Origin: Chloroflexota bacterium
GTDB taxonomy: Bacteria; Chloroflexota; Anaerolineae; UBA3071
DNA: 17,783 nt
Reading direction: 5' to 3'
NCBI GenBank assembly: GCA_014383605.1
Contig: JACNHM010000476.1
Location: 2,466-20,248 of the forward strand
The translations under genes and the position numbers were made by a program. Of the stretch, positions 11,861 through 14,641 are shown one piece after another (the first letter of the stretch is position 1; each line of letters opens with the position of its first letter). Under the pieces are notes generated by a model. It did not search any database. It had not been told where the DNA came from and worked only from the letters and a program-made list of their open reading frames with translations.

Positions 11861-12103
11861 TCACCCCCCGGCCACTGGCGGGAAGAAGGCCACCCGGTCG
11901 CCGTCACGAAGCCGGTAGTCGTCGTCCTGATGCCGGTTGTTGACGAAAGATGTCTTCACCTCGCTTTTCGGTACGCCCAGCCGGACCAGCAAGTCGGCCA
12001 GCCGGGAACCTTCGGGCATTTGCAAGACCACCGGTTCGCCAACACCCGTTTCGGGGCTGTATTTGCGCAACGTGGCATACAGCCGCACCTCAGCCGTGAT
12101 CAT
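11861..12103 (-). CDS. MoaD/ThiS-like ubiquitin-fold protein with C-terminal Gly-Gly
   Basis: This protein of about 80 residues has the beta-grasp pattern of MoaD/ThiS: EVRLYATLRKYSP at the start, LADLLVRLGVP in the middle and RDGDRVAFFPPVAGG at the end. The C-terminal Gly-Gly is the site activated and thiocarboxylated in sulfur carriers used for the molybdopterin dithiolene, so it can be a real sulfur carrier for the tungsten or molybdenum pterin cofactor. It sits downstream of the aldehyde oxidoreductase and overlaps the other MoaD-like gene. The start is uncertain: ATG at 12103 is favoured because an AGGTGA-like site lies at a workable distance, while an in-frame GTG at 12115 is possible. 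I assign no gene symbol, since it may be dedicated to this enzyme. Confidence 0.88.
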   Translation of the reverse strand: MITAEVRLYATLRKYSPETGVGEPVVLQMPEGSRLADLLVRLGVPKSEVKTSFVNNRHQDDDYRLRDGDRVAFFPPVAGG

Positions 12104-12386
12104 CCTCTTCTTCACCTACCTTCACGAAATACCACTTGTAGAGCAACTGCATGTCGTCCGGGAAGACCGCCAGGCGGTCGCCGTCCTCGACCCTTCTCGT
12201 CAGAGCGGAGTATTGCCAGTTTAGGAAGACGTTGCTCCCCACCTCCTCCATCGGCACGCCCAACCCCTCCAACACTTCCTGGATAGTATCGCCCTCTTGC
12301 ACCGGCACGTAGATGACGGAATCGCTGGCGGGGTCCTGCTCATTGGCGAAGCGGCGCAGCTTGCCGTACAGGTGGATCTCGATCAT
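12090..12386 (-). CDS. MoaD-like ubiquitin-fold protein lacking the Gly-Gly tail
   Basis: This 98-residue protein shares the beta-grasp pattern of its neighbour: IEIHLYGKLRRFAN, the middle stretch IQEVLEGLGVPMEEVGSNVF, and VEDGDRLAVFPDDMQLLY near the end. Instead of stopping after a Gly-Gly it runs on into KWYFVKVGEEEDDHG, an acidic tail with no di-glycine. It therefore cannot act by the usual thiocarboxylate chemistry and may be a structural or cofactor-insertion partner for the aldehyde oxidoreductase (inference). The ATG at 12386 has GAGGGAG ahead of it; an in-frame ATG at 12398 has no such site. Its 3' end overlaps the start of the Gly-Gly MoaD-like gene by about 14 bases, so the two are probably made together. 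Confidence 0.85.
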   Translation of the reverse strand: MIEIHLYGKLRRFANEQDPASDSVIYVPVQEGDTIQEVLEGLGVPMEEVGSNVFLNWQYSALTRRVEDGDRLAVFPDDMQLLYKWYFVKVGEEEDDHG

Positions 12387-12398
12387 GTTCTCCCTCAT

Positions 12399-12482: not shown

Positions 12483-12583
12483 GCTAGAACCAATGTACCG
12501 TTTGGTTAAGCAACGTAGAGGCGGCTCCCAGCCGCCGGCCTGGGGCCGGCTCTTCGTTAACTAAACCGTATTGGGGCTAGAAC
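12483..12583. mobile_element. 85-bp palindromic MITE-like element with 8-bp flanking duplication
   Basis: An 85-base palindromic element (12491-12575) is flanked by direct copies of gctagaac at 12483-12490 and 12576-12583. Its ends, caatgtaccgtttggttaag and the reverse complement of ttaactaaaccgtattgg, form an imperfect terminal inverted repeat. The core holds two perfect stems, ggcggct/agccgcc and gccggcc/ggccggc. The right-hand copy of the flanking repeat includes the stop codon of the aldehyde oxidoreductase. It codes for nothing and looks like a non-autonomous insertion exactly at the 3' end of that gene. The responsible transposase is not in the window. Confidence 0.6.
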
Positions 12584-14322
12584 TCCCAGACGCTGTCCAG
12601 TGCCTCATCGGGCACGTCCCAGACGTGGTTGTGGGGAGGCAGCTTCTCGTACTTCATGAACTCTGGCACCCGGTCGTGAATCCTGGTGAAGCCGGCCGCC
12701 TCGTTGAAGGCACGCTCCTTCTTGAGGATCTCCTTGCCGATGCGGGTCACGTCATCTGCCGTCCAGTTGGTCCCCAGTAACCCGGCACAACTCTCTATCA
12801 TCCCTTCAAACCCCTCGGCGATGTCCAGGATGGCGAAAGCGATGAACAGGCAGTAGCCCGTGGCGTCAATGAAGGCAGTGGCGATCTGGTAGTTCCGCGA
12901 CCACTCCGCCTTTCCCTCAGGGGTCAACGGATCGGCCTTGCCGCCCACGGAGAGGATCTCCGGACAGATGGTGTAGCCAGAGGTGTGGTCGGCGCCCATG
13001 GTGGAGGTGGCGTAGGTGACGCCGATGCCCTTGATTGACCGCGGGGAATAGGCGGGCATGTTCTGGCCCTTGACCCCCGGCACGCGGACGACCCCAAAGG
13101 CCCGGCCGGTGAAGGCGGCCCCGTTTCCCAGGATGCGGCCCAGCGGCGTGCCCTTGCCGATCTCGTGCATCAGCTCGAGGGCCTTCTGCCCGTCGCCGAA
13201 CTCGGCCAGGCCGCCTTCCATGGCCACGGCGATGGTGCCGCCAGACTCGATGGTGTCCAGGCCGTAGTTGTTGCACAGCCAAATCAGATCGCCGGTCACG
13301 TCCAGGTCATCAATGCCGCAGTTGGCCCCGAAGGCCCAGATGGACTCGTACTCCTGGCAGGAGACGTGCTCGGTGCCGTCGGGCTTGTGCCAGACGTTGG
13401 AGCACTGGATGATGCAACCGGGGCTGCAGGGGTGGTTGTAGAGCTCCTTGCCCAGGCGCTCCTTGTTGCCCTCGAAAATCGCCTCGCCGGCGATCTTGGC
13501 CGCACCCTCGAAGTAGCCGCTGGAGAAGTTACGAGTGGGCAACCCCCCGGCCTCGTTCATGATGTTGATCAACACCGCCGTGCCGTAGGTGTTAAGGGCT
13601 CCCTTGGGCTTGGTGATGGCGTGGCTGCGCAGGGCCTCGGTCAACTTTTTGCAGCCGGCGTTGAAGAGCTCCTTGTCGGCGATGTCCACACCAGGGCCGC
13701 CCGCAGCGTCGGCGACGATAAATTTCAGGCCCTTGCTGCCCAGCACCGCCCCCATGCCCCCGCGGCCCGAGTAACGGCTGGGACGACCGTCAATGTCGTT
13801 GTAGCACACTCCCGCCATGGCCATCTGGTATTCGCCAGCGACGCCGATGCCCATGATGTCCGCCTTCTTGCCGAAGCGATCGAAGAGCTGGGGGTAGACC
13901 TCGTAGAGGCCCTTGCCCACGTACTCGTCGGCGGGGAGAAGCTTGGCCTCATCCTTGGTGAGGTGCAGGAGCCAGAACTTGCCCTTCTCCTGCGGCTGGC
14001 CTTCGACGATGATGGCCTTGAGGCCCAGGCGGGCCGCGCTTTGGGACCAACCAGTCCCGGCGTTGGTCTCCTTGATGGTGCCGGTGAGCGGCGATTTGCC
14101 GCCTAAGGAGACGCGGGCGCTGGTGGGGGCGTTGGTGCCGCTGACGATACCTGGAGCCAGAACGACCTTGTTGTTGGGCCCCAGGGGGTGGCAGGTGGGC
14201 TCCACCTCATCGGCCACGATGGACGAGGTGAGCCAGCGCCCACCCATCAGCTTGTACTTCTCCGGCACGTCTTCGTACGCGGCCGTCAGATCAGTCATAT
14301 TGACTCGTAGGATCTTGCTCAT
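12577..14322 (-). CDS. aor: Aldehyde:ferredoxin oxidoreductase (tungsten/molybdenum bis-pterin enzyme)
   Basis: This 581-residue protein is a full-length member of the AOR family (about 600 residues), which oxidises aldehydes to carboxylic acids, or the reverse, with ferredoxin, using a tungsten (sometimes molybdenum) bis-pyranopterin and one 4Fe-4S cluster. Recognisable parts are GGRW (27-30), the N-terminal pterin-domain stretch around 56-95, YSGRGGMGAVLGSKGLK (184-200), the cluster cysteines Cys299, Cys303, Cys307 and Cys491 (HPCSPGCIIQC and GYC), and GADHTSGYTICPE. The first three cysteines are spaced CX3CX3C rather than the CX2CX3C of the archaeal enzyme. The ATG at 14322 has GGAGGTG upstream. 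A Moco-family riboswitch with a terminator lies in its leader, and two MoaD-like genes follow. Aldehyde specificity is unknown; the neighbouring 2-oxoacid oxidoreductase uses the same carrier. Confidence 0.95.
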   Translation of the reverse strand: MSKILRVNMTDLTAAYEDVPEKYKLMGGRWLTSSIVADEVEPTCHPLGPNNKVVLAPGIVSGTNAPTSARVSLGGKSPLTGTIKETNAGTGWSQSAARLGLKAIIVEGQPQEKGKFWLLHLTKDEAKLLPADEYVGKGLYEVYPQLFDRFGKKADIMGIGVAGEYQMAMAGVCYNDIDGRPSRYSGRGGMGAVLGSKGLKFIVADAAGGPGVDIADKELFNAGCKKLTEALRSHAITKPKGALNTYGTAVLINIMNEAGGLPTRNFSSGYFEGAAKIAGEAIFEGNKERLGKELYNHPCSPGCIIQCSNVWHKPDGTEHVSCQEYESIWAFGANCGIDDLDVTGDLIWLCNNYGLDTIESGGTIAVAMEGGLAEFGDGQKALELMHEIGKGTPLGRILGNGAAFTGRAFGVVRVPGVKGQNMPAYSPRSIKGIGVTYATSTMGADHTSGYTICPEILSVGGKADPLTPEGKAEWSRNYQIATAFIDATGYCLFIAFAILDIAEGFEGMIESCAGLLGTNWTADDVTRIGKEILKKERAFNEAAGFTRIHDRVPEFMKYEKLPPHNHVWDVPDEALDSVWEF

Positions 14323-14420
14323 CTTTGAACACCTCCATAAGCATTAAGATTTTTATAGAGACATTTGCGACTTGCCAACGATTATCACGACTCCACATCA
14401 CCTCCTCTCCGTCCTCAACC

Positions 14421-14469
14421 AAAAAGGAGAGCCATGATCTGGCCTTGTACCAGATGAGGGATCTCCTTT
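14421..14469 (-). terminator. Intrinsic terminator of the riboswitch expression platform
   Basis: On the minus strand AAAGGAGA pairs with TCTCCTTT, with further pairs inward (CC/GG and ATCTGG/CCAGAT) and a 7-base loop, ending in a run of five T. The left arm includes the GGAGA that also forms the riboswitch P1 stem (14462-14466). Aptamer and terminator are therefore mutually exclusive, as expected for a transcription-attenuating riboswitch. The remaining leader down to 14323 shows only the ribosome-binding site. Confidence 0.75.
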
Positions 14470-14560
14470 CCACGCTGGGAGGCACAGCCGTTTCCCGCTG
14501 TACCCTATCGGCTATGGCGCATAGGTCTTCCCGTAGCAGCCATAGCTCGGAGACAGAACC
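14462..14560 (-). ncRNA. Moco-family (molybdenum/tungsten cofactor) riboswitch
   Basis: Read on the minus strand, this leader shows the conserved blocks of the Moco RNA motif in order: TCTCCGAGC, GGGAAGACC, GGGTACA, GGGAAAC, TGTGCCTCCC and GAAAGGAGA. P1 is TCTCC (14549-14553) with GGAGA (14462-14466). Another helix is a perfect GCTATGGC/GCCATAGC (14539-14546 with 14511-14518), and a third is ACAGC/GCTGT closed by a GAAA-type loop. The published class (Regulski and colleagues, 2008, from memory) precedes genes for molybdenum- and tungsten-cofactor synthesis or use. Here it precedes an aldehyde oxidoreductase needing that cofactor. Which form, Mo or W, it prefers cannot be told by eye. Confidence 0.88.
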
Positions 14561-14612
14561 TTATGATGGTGTCACAGAACAGCTTGCGGACAAAAGGAGT
14601 TGCCGTAAGCAA

Positions 14613-14641
14613 ATTATACATCCATCCCCGCTAATATGCAA
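14613..14641 (-). promoter_or_regulatory. Promoter for the riboswitch-aldehyde oxidoreductase transcript
   Basis: On the minus strand TTGCAT, 17 bases, then a perfect TATAAT. The start point would fall about 50 bases ahead of the riboswitch P1 strand, giving a leader of roughly 285 bases before the oxidoreductase ATG. It lies just downstream of the palindromic element at 14653-14813. Confidence 0.7.

Follow-up and report, generated by a model that had tools for sequence, protein, structure and literature searches.

A P3-less Moco-family RNA sharing its P1 strand with a terminator is a predicted ON switch of an aldehyde:ferredoxin oxidoreductase operon in Anaerolineae

The window, by which we mean the whole 17,783-nucleotide stretch of a Chloroflexota contig (JACNHM010000476.1) analysed here, carries on its minus strand a gene for an aldehyde:ferredoxin oxidoreductase (AOR) family protein and genes for small MoaD/Ub-Mut7C-like and ThiS/MoaD-like proteins (Table 1). 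Enzymes of the AOR family usually use tungsten. Ahead of the AOR gene, on the same strand, cmscan finds the only RF01055 match of the whole window (72.7 bits, E 3.5e-16; the family gathering score is 36 bits), which aligns to the full model from position 1 to 135. The original prediction, made from the sequence, had described the conserved Moco-RNA blocks in order at 14421–14560 and had proposed an Infernal search with RF01055 as a check; the significant match bears the blocks out, and the coordinates are correct to within a few bases. In the RF01055 alignment, the RNA has P1, P2, P4 and P5 with the conserved junctions, the P3 positions are deleted, and P4 is kept with its closing GAAA. The GAAA loop and the CUA...UAUG motif match the consensus of the GNRA loop and its P2 receptor, the putative partners of a tertiary contact. 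The P2–P4 linker measures 4 nt, and linkers of the parsed RNAs are either 1–7 or at least 18 nt long.

Table 1. Features of the AOR operon and its leader in the window
Feature	Positions	Strand	Basis
Promoter-like boxes: TTGCAT (14641–14636), 17-nt gap, TATAAT (14618–14613), with TG before the second	14613..14641	-	sequence
Moco/W-cofactor aptamer, P3-less, type A core	14447..14564	-	RF01055 match
P1 5' strand UCUCC	14549..14553	-	sequence, RF01055 alignment, folding
P1 3' strand GGAGA, also terminator 5' arm (putative switching strand)	14462..14466	-	sequence, alignment, folding
Intrinsic terminator hairpin	14423..14469	-	folding, -21.8 kcal/mol
Terminator U-tract, five T	14421..14425	-	sequence
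AGGAGGUGAU, Shine-Dalgarno-like, 3' of the terminator and distant from both the AOR start and any long ORF	14397..14406	-	sequence
GGAGG, AOR ribosome-binding site	14332..14336	-	sequence
AOR family protein, 581 aa, predicted controlled gene	12577..14322	-	Pfam AFOR_N + AFOR_C
Small MoaD/Ub-Mut7C-like protein, next gene behind AOR	12090..12398	-	domain scan
ThiS/MoaD-like small protein	11861..12115	-	domain scan

Promoter-like boxes scoring at least 9/12 occur in 44/55 AOR leaders as against 112/1100 shuffles. Those of the window scored 9/12 by the script, with the register one base off, and were not picked up by a promoter scan requiring 4/6 in each box. Elsewhere in the window, a perfect sigma-70 consensus (TTGACA-17-TATAAT, 7832–7804) lies 50 nt before a gene of an Rrf2-family regulator (7754–7314).

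The 3' strand of P1 is used twice in the leader. The outer stem of the terminator is formed by AAAGGAGA (14469–14462), which contains GGAGA, and UCUCCUUU (14430–14423), and its inner stem comprises 7 bp (14455–14449/14443–14437), the only part listed by a terminator scan of the window; the hairpin ends approximately 100 nt ahead of the AOR gene. The predicted double use of GGAGA, in P1 and in a terminator stem ending in five T, is thus confirmed by sequence and folding. The 150-nt leader folds better than its dinucleotide shuffles (z -4.55; 1/200 shuffles as good), and its free fold contains the terminator and lacks P1. When the leader is folded at increasing lengths, the P1-forced fold equals the free fold or lies within 1 kcal/mol of it at eight lengths from 104 to 139 nt, and falls behind it by 7.3 kcal/mol at 144 nt and by 8.5 kcal/mol at 149 nt, where the terminator 3' arm is out. 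P1 and the terminator exclude each other, and a ligand that holds P1 should favour read-through, as an ON switch would. The length series is the anatomy expected of a transcriptional ON switch, in which the ligand would have to hold P1 briefly. By itself, the window locus is modest evidence for such a switch, because 62/1000 shuffles of its downstream DNA are also called ON, 32/1000 of them equally strongly.

Relatives were reached via AOR loci, of which a profile scan of genome contigs gave 80. The genomes of the first 40 contain an RF01055 match in 29/40 cases, over the cut-off in 26/40. A tree of the AORs with 78 rows (three short frames were left out) comprises 49 rows with no RNA nearby, nine with too little upstream DNA, 15 with an RNA that we call type B, one whose type B RNA lies at a distance of about 1.9 kb, and four, the window included, with an RNA of the common family core, type A. 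The original prediction had suggested comparing the leaders of other aor genes: the three further type A loci (L001, L002 and L004) share the shared-strand terminator architecture of the window, and the reading as a Moco-family RNA with a predicted ON direction holds, but the aptamer of the window is of an unusual type for AOR leaders of Anaerolineae. Where these leaders carry a Moco-family RNA, it is mostly type B, partly below the RF01055 cut-off.

Type B RNAs are compact. An alignment of sixteen sequences has a mean column identity of 86%, and the covariance model built from them, R1, gives matches of 92–95 nt. Their fold consists of P1, P2, P4 and P5, with changes on both sides in 13/29 pairs in at least one row. 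As compared with type A, P2 is short and without the receptor pattern, the loop is GCAA in 15/16 aligned sequences, and the outer P5 pair is G–C rather than C–G (GCAAAGG versus GGAAAGG). RF01055 scores 31.0–51.3 bits on 15 type B examples, 4/15 of them under 36, and three type B RNAs found with R1 (genomes G003, G007 and G032) are absent from the RF01055 listing. R1 matches occur in 84/298 genomes of the class of genome G009. A working line of at least 71 bits with R1 defines type B and leaves six compact matches of 53–68 bits outside. The window RNA, with 44.1 bits and GGAAAGG instead of GCAAAGG at the P5/P1 junction, is not type B. Type B RNAs lie before AOR and oxidoreductase genes (L018, L009, L010, L020 and 53 further loci).

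Several leaders depart from this arrangement. In L003, the type B RNA (84-176) is some 1.9 kb distant from the AOR gene, and window-like platform remnants stand immediately ahead of the gene, just before position 2080. Another (L431:101-194) lies nearly 8 kb from the AOR gene and is followed by unrelated ORFs, and L113, L114 and L118 are like it, with no enzyme gene within the stretch at hand. Very weak R1 matches directly precede the AOR genes of L049 (2144-2228, 24.7 bits) and L031 (5824-5914, 15.6 bits), one of them in a Spirochaetes MAG, and possibly represent further divergence of type B. Four other AOR leaders (L036, L045, L063 and L078), with no RF01055 match over the cut-off, have hairpins of a similar kind (GCGTTATGC...GCATAACGC-like) with T's behind them, maybe another leader element.

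We then surveyed the wiring of RNA to terminator in a first set of 190 RNAs (133 type A, 57 type B) taken from top-scoring places and AOR loci. They are nearly all from Anaerolineae, with a few type A RNAs from other genomes, and type A stands here for the best-scoring among the matches listed; the duplicate L126 was dropped and tandem RNAs were counted singly. An RNA was called ON if at least 4/5 shared P1 nucleotides pair with the base of a stem beside a U-tract within 160 nt, with a fold below -12 kcal/mol. This caller (type B 51/57, type A 30/133 ON) replaced a looser one (53/57 and 50/133) and was kept unchanged for other phyla. With shuffled downstream DNA, it calls ON in 105/1330 type A and 68/570 type B cases (8–12%). 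Genes of all 312 RNAs of the study were labelled by direct BLAST to Pfam-scanned representatives; single-linkage BLAST clusters, which had given 79/88 versus 15/137 ON, were abandoned after Pfam showed a 'WtpA' cluster chained to Oxidored_molyb and Peripla_BP_2.

In the first set, ON calls are found before AOR genes (43/46) and genes of oxidoreductase FeS subunits (8/8), molybdopterin oxidoreductases (3/3) and NrfD (1/1). Counts for cofactor making and metal import are 0/19 for MoaA, 0/11 for MoeA, 0/5 for MoaB/Mog, 0/11 for TupB-like, 2/7 for TupA and 1/4 for WtpA. Other labels gave 2/11 (WtpA-like, best match a fused protein), 0/3 (NTPase_1), 2/13 (PF09819 permease), 2/7 (Oxidored_molyb types), 0/2 (XDH), 1/3 (Peripla_BP_2), 0/2 (DUF362), 4/6 (other Fer4) and 12/28 (unlabelled); in five Fer4 cases, once labelled AOR and left out of the enzyme-class total below, the first gene is followed by an AOR-like frame. 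R1 was built from leaders mainly at AOR genes, which biases the sequence features of type B and not the genes found genome-wide. In the least biased part, the first-set type A RNAs without the four AOR loci, the enzyme class is ON in 10/10 cases versus 3/57 for makers. Under the old gene labels, maker genes have a candidate antiterminator-type OFF terminator in 34/134 cases, versus 13/670 mononucleotide shuffles, and a start codon right after P1 in 8/134; for most of them no platform type was assigned.

The flipped P5 pair is present in 54/58 enzyme-class RNAs of the first set, the exceptions being the window, L001, L002 and L004, all of them ON, and in 0/56 maker RNAs (the mis-anchored L267 set aside); five mis-anchored RNAs were dropped from this count alone. 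The P5 core of these four RNAs otherwise precedes maker genes and other mostly non-ON genes in the Anaerolineae set. In the window, an aptamer of the maker type is therefore joined to a predicted ON platform. Genomes G001, G002 and G004 have no type B RNA among 150 candidates per genome scored with R1 (best 40.2 bits; the RNA of L001 itself was not among the candidates). In a quick tree of the 78 AORs, the type A rows stand near each other beside type B rows, close together and not as one clade, so a single type A clade was rejected. This placement suggests an exchange of type A and type B at the AOR locus, in either direction.

A second set, 106 RNAs from the phyla of a deltaproteobacterial MAG (G021) and of Hakubella (G023), gives a similar picture for compact RNAs. 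Type-B-like RNAs are ON in 12/12 cases, before AOR (3), molybdopterin oxidoreductase (7) and Fer4 (2) genes, where the compact set is 12 of 13 matches of 84–94 nt with at least 44 bits. Type A RNAs of this set are ON before TupA in 3/33, MoaA in 0/6, MoeA in 1/6, WtpA in 1/2, AOR in 0/1, Oxidored_molyb types in 3/13, aldehyde dehydrogenase in 0/3 and porin genes in 0/5 cases; the AOR locus of another phylum that has a family RNA and is not ON is L295. Predictions set beforehand were then applied to ten compact RNAs of the G023 phylum, which have GCAAAGG in 10/10 cases (a weak point, as the model favours GCAAAGG) and are ON in 8/10; all labelled genes (8/8) encode AOR (3) or molybdopterin oxidoreductase (5). 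Of the two remaining loci, one has a Fer4 protein as its first ORF and one is without an ORF of 90 aa. Among Spirochaetota, six of eight matches were covered, and on these the second part of the prediction failed. Three C-type RNAs lie before MoaA genes and are not ON, the start codon being 9 nt past the P1 3' strand; a fourth C-type RNA, ahead of an Fe-S-like ORF with a weak match, is not ON either; and of two G-type RNAs before molybdopterin oxidoreductases, one is ON. The GCAAAGG flip as a universal mark of ON wiring or of cofactor users was thus rejected; it holds in Anaerolineae and the G021 phylum, fails in Spirochaetota, and appears to be only a lineage-limited marker. Non-ON Moco-family RNAs also precede aldehyde dehydrogenase genes (L290, PF00171; L301 and L361 by BLAST), perhaps cofactor-free backup enzymes, and Porin O_P genes follow Moco-family RNAs at L282, L294 and, by BLAST, three more loci.

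Over all 312 RNAs, 73/79 before AOR, molybdopterin oxidoreductase, FeS-subunit and NrfD genes are ON, as against 8/107 before MoaA, MoeA, MoaB/Mog, TupA, TupB-like and WtpA genes, approximately the shuffle rate. Thirteen WtpA-like genes whose best match is the fused protein L224 stand outside the 107 (10/120 with them), as do NTPase_1, PF09819 and porin genes, which could be counted there. When RNAs more than 85% alike are collapsed, 45/50 of the enzyme class are ON versus 8/87 for makers and transport. Fisher's test gives p values of 3e-25 (first set) and 6e-7 (second set), which are overstated, as loci are taken as independent. Three-way covariation is seen at nucleotide 5 of the shared strand across the 81 ON RNAs: a shared G faces C in P1 and either C or T in the terminator in 39 RNAs, a shared A faces T on both sides in 24, and a shared G faces T in P1 and C in the terminator in 6; one of the two pairs is missing from the remaining 12. 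The ON call demands pairing with the terminator arm, and therefore only the P1 side of this covariation is free of selection. Within the G021-phylum set, the shared strand is GGAAG in 9/12 RNAs, facing CUUCC (7) or UUUCC (2) in P1, and 7 of the 9 repeat CUUCC directly before the U-tract. The predicted ON direction is thereby supported, with P1 expected to persist until the terminator 3' arm emerges and the same architecture recurring across several phyla.

These counts suggest that ON wiring is usual for two cofactor-using enzyme families and rare for cofactor making or metal import. The original prediction had argued that an ON switch suits a cofactor-using rather than a cofactor-making gene; this logic agrees with the counts for AOR and molybdopterin oxidoreductases, but not for sulphite-oxidase-type enzymes (Oxidored_molyb with or without a fused Peripla_BP_2) and XDH, which are ON in 5/23 cases, so that the claim that all users are ON was dropped; all other genes are ON in 25/103. 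Each metal is held by two pterins in AOR and the molybdopterin oxidoreductases and by a single one in XDH and sulphite oxidase. That the split follows the number of pterins is suggestive only, and the contrast weakened when genes were relabelled by direct BLAST. The sulphite-oxidase-type loci behind Moco-family RNAs (L369, L371, L373, L378, L379 and others) are mostly not ON, and the P1 3' strand is a candidate ribosome-binding site in 5/11 of the cluster found first. Some proteins behind such RNAs (L197, L254, L255 and L224) are fusions of Oxidored_molyb with Peripla_BP_2 or a solute-binding domain. First ORFs of molybdopterin oxidoreductases stop at TGA after 185–223 codons, with the frame open beyond, at L334, L336, L339, L343, L351, L352, L354, L390, L391, L392, L394, L428 and L422, and by their sequence are probably selenocysteine formate-dehydrogenase-type genes.

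Taken together, we consider that the P3-less RF01055 RNA is an ON switch acting by transcription termination on the AOR operon, most likely in response to the tungsten form of the cofactor, with a probability of about 0.8. From the features seen in the DNA (the aptamer, the shared strand, the terminator, the gene and the architecture of the relatives), we infer how switching would proceed. The aptamer would be the first element made by RNA polymerase. Cofactor binding would keep P1 (UCUCC/GGAGA) closed, GGAGA would be unable to start the terminator, and the operon would be read; with no cofactor, the UCUCCUUU arm would capture AAAGGAGA and transcription would end at the U-tract. The enzyme would thus be made solely when its cofactor exists.

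The tungsten form is the least certain step. It is favoured as the most likely ligand because the RNA has no P3 and precedes an AOR gene. P3, unparsed in 27/190 RNAs of the first set, is absent from all parsed leaders of AOR (44/44) and TupA (7/7), consistent with the tungsten-cofactor sensing proposed for P3-less RNAs in 2008, as given in the accessible text of PMC2408646, and is present in 7/9 MoeA and 4/4 MoaB/Mog leaders. The simple metal rule is contradicted by TupB-like (tungstate-type permease) leaders, which have P3 in 8/11 cases, and by parsed MoaA leaders of Anaerolineae, which lack it in 8/11; FeS-subunit leaders lack it in 5/8. These latter counts are what one would expect if the ligand of the same RNA were the molybdenum cofactor, or the cofactor with either metal, and the loss of P3 reflected lineage rather than metal, a reading that we regard as possible but unlikely in view of the uniform AOR and TupA leaders. 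A more doubtful proposal is that the compact class (type B and its C-type kin) is an ON sensor for two-pterin enzymes, perhaps for another form of the cofactor, and that the window is a natural swap with a maker-type aptamer on the AOR ON platform; the difference in ligand between compact and maker-type aptamers is here purely inferential. Thirteen Moco-family RNAs, P3-less in 10/10 parsed cases, precede PF09819-type ('ABC_cobalt' ECF) permease genes (L157, labelled by Pfam; L155, L142 and ten others by BLAST), which might serve to take up an oxyanion or a pterin.

A different mode of control would leave the terminator incidental, with the aptamer acting OFF or on translation through a ribosome-binding site or another fold. 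The E. coli member, which is OFF and has its ribosome-binding site in P1 (PMC2408646, in the part accessible), sets a precedent, and the window has the Shine-Dalgarno-like AGGAGGUGAU 3' of its terminator. The AOR ribosome-binding site, however, lies about 126 nt from P1, and a P1-sharing terminator is present at 73/79 enzyme-class loci while before maker genes it occurs at the shuffle rate, which makes this mode very improbable. Elements like AGGAGGUGAU occur in 11/52 ON AOR leaders and could shield the transcript or begin a tiny peptide. Least probable of all is a relic, in which the terminator is constitutive and the aptamer senses nothing any more: the neighbour L003, without an aptamer directly before AOR and with platform-like remnants kept, speaks for it, but the aptamer of the window covers the whole family model, its junctions conserved, and is kept in L001, L002 and L004.

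If the termination-controlled ON switch is real, the same genomes would use one RNA family with differing signs, ON ahead of enzymes that require the cofactor and seldom ON ahead of genes for its making or for metal import, which would give a testable cell-level logic for the tungsten and molybdenum economy. AOR leaders would be natural reporters for whether P3-less RNAs sense the tungsten cofactor, and type A/type B leader pairs of one gene could be used to probe the effects of aptamer differences.

Comparison with the Moco RNA of E. coli moaA (RF01055), the member tested by genetics and repressed (PMC2408646), reveals that both share P1, P2, the P4 GAAA loop, P5, the junction and the position before a cofactor gene. 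The moaA RNA has P3, acts by repression and holds the ribosome-binding site in P1, whereas the window RNA has no P3, a terminator and a predicted ON direction. The accessible part of that paper reports no direct binding, the cofactor being unstable, notes terminators after some members, and lists in its abstract groups without Chloroflexota; termination at E. coli moaA is reported in PMC12121620. Moco riboswitches are noted before moaA in Dehalogenimonas (PMC13390414), and one in Caldithrix (PMC5317091). The P3-less 'Tuco/Wco' variant (PMC2408646; Wco riboswitches are listed in PMC9481103) resembles the window RNA in the missing P3 and the tungsten-type gene, but for this variant the accessible text of these papers describes neither an ON direction nor a shared-strand terminator, both of which are predicted in the window. 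The window RNA is of a known kind, and the ON platform is undescribed in the literature searched, which left subscription papers mostly outside; within the same scope, the compact type B aptamer variant is apparently undescribed as well. In the transcriptional ON type of the adenine riboswitch, the ligand holds P1 and in this way prevents the formation of a terminator built on the P1 3' strand. The predicted switch of the window would work in the same way, by analogy only, as aptamer and ligand are unrelated. A likeness in wiring among the RNAs surveyed here is offered by type B of Anaerolineae, which shares with the window the gene family, the position and the shared-strand terminator, whereas the aptamers differ: type B is compact with a short P2, no receptor pattern and a flipped P5, and the window RNA has the type A core.
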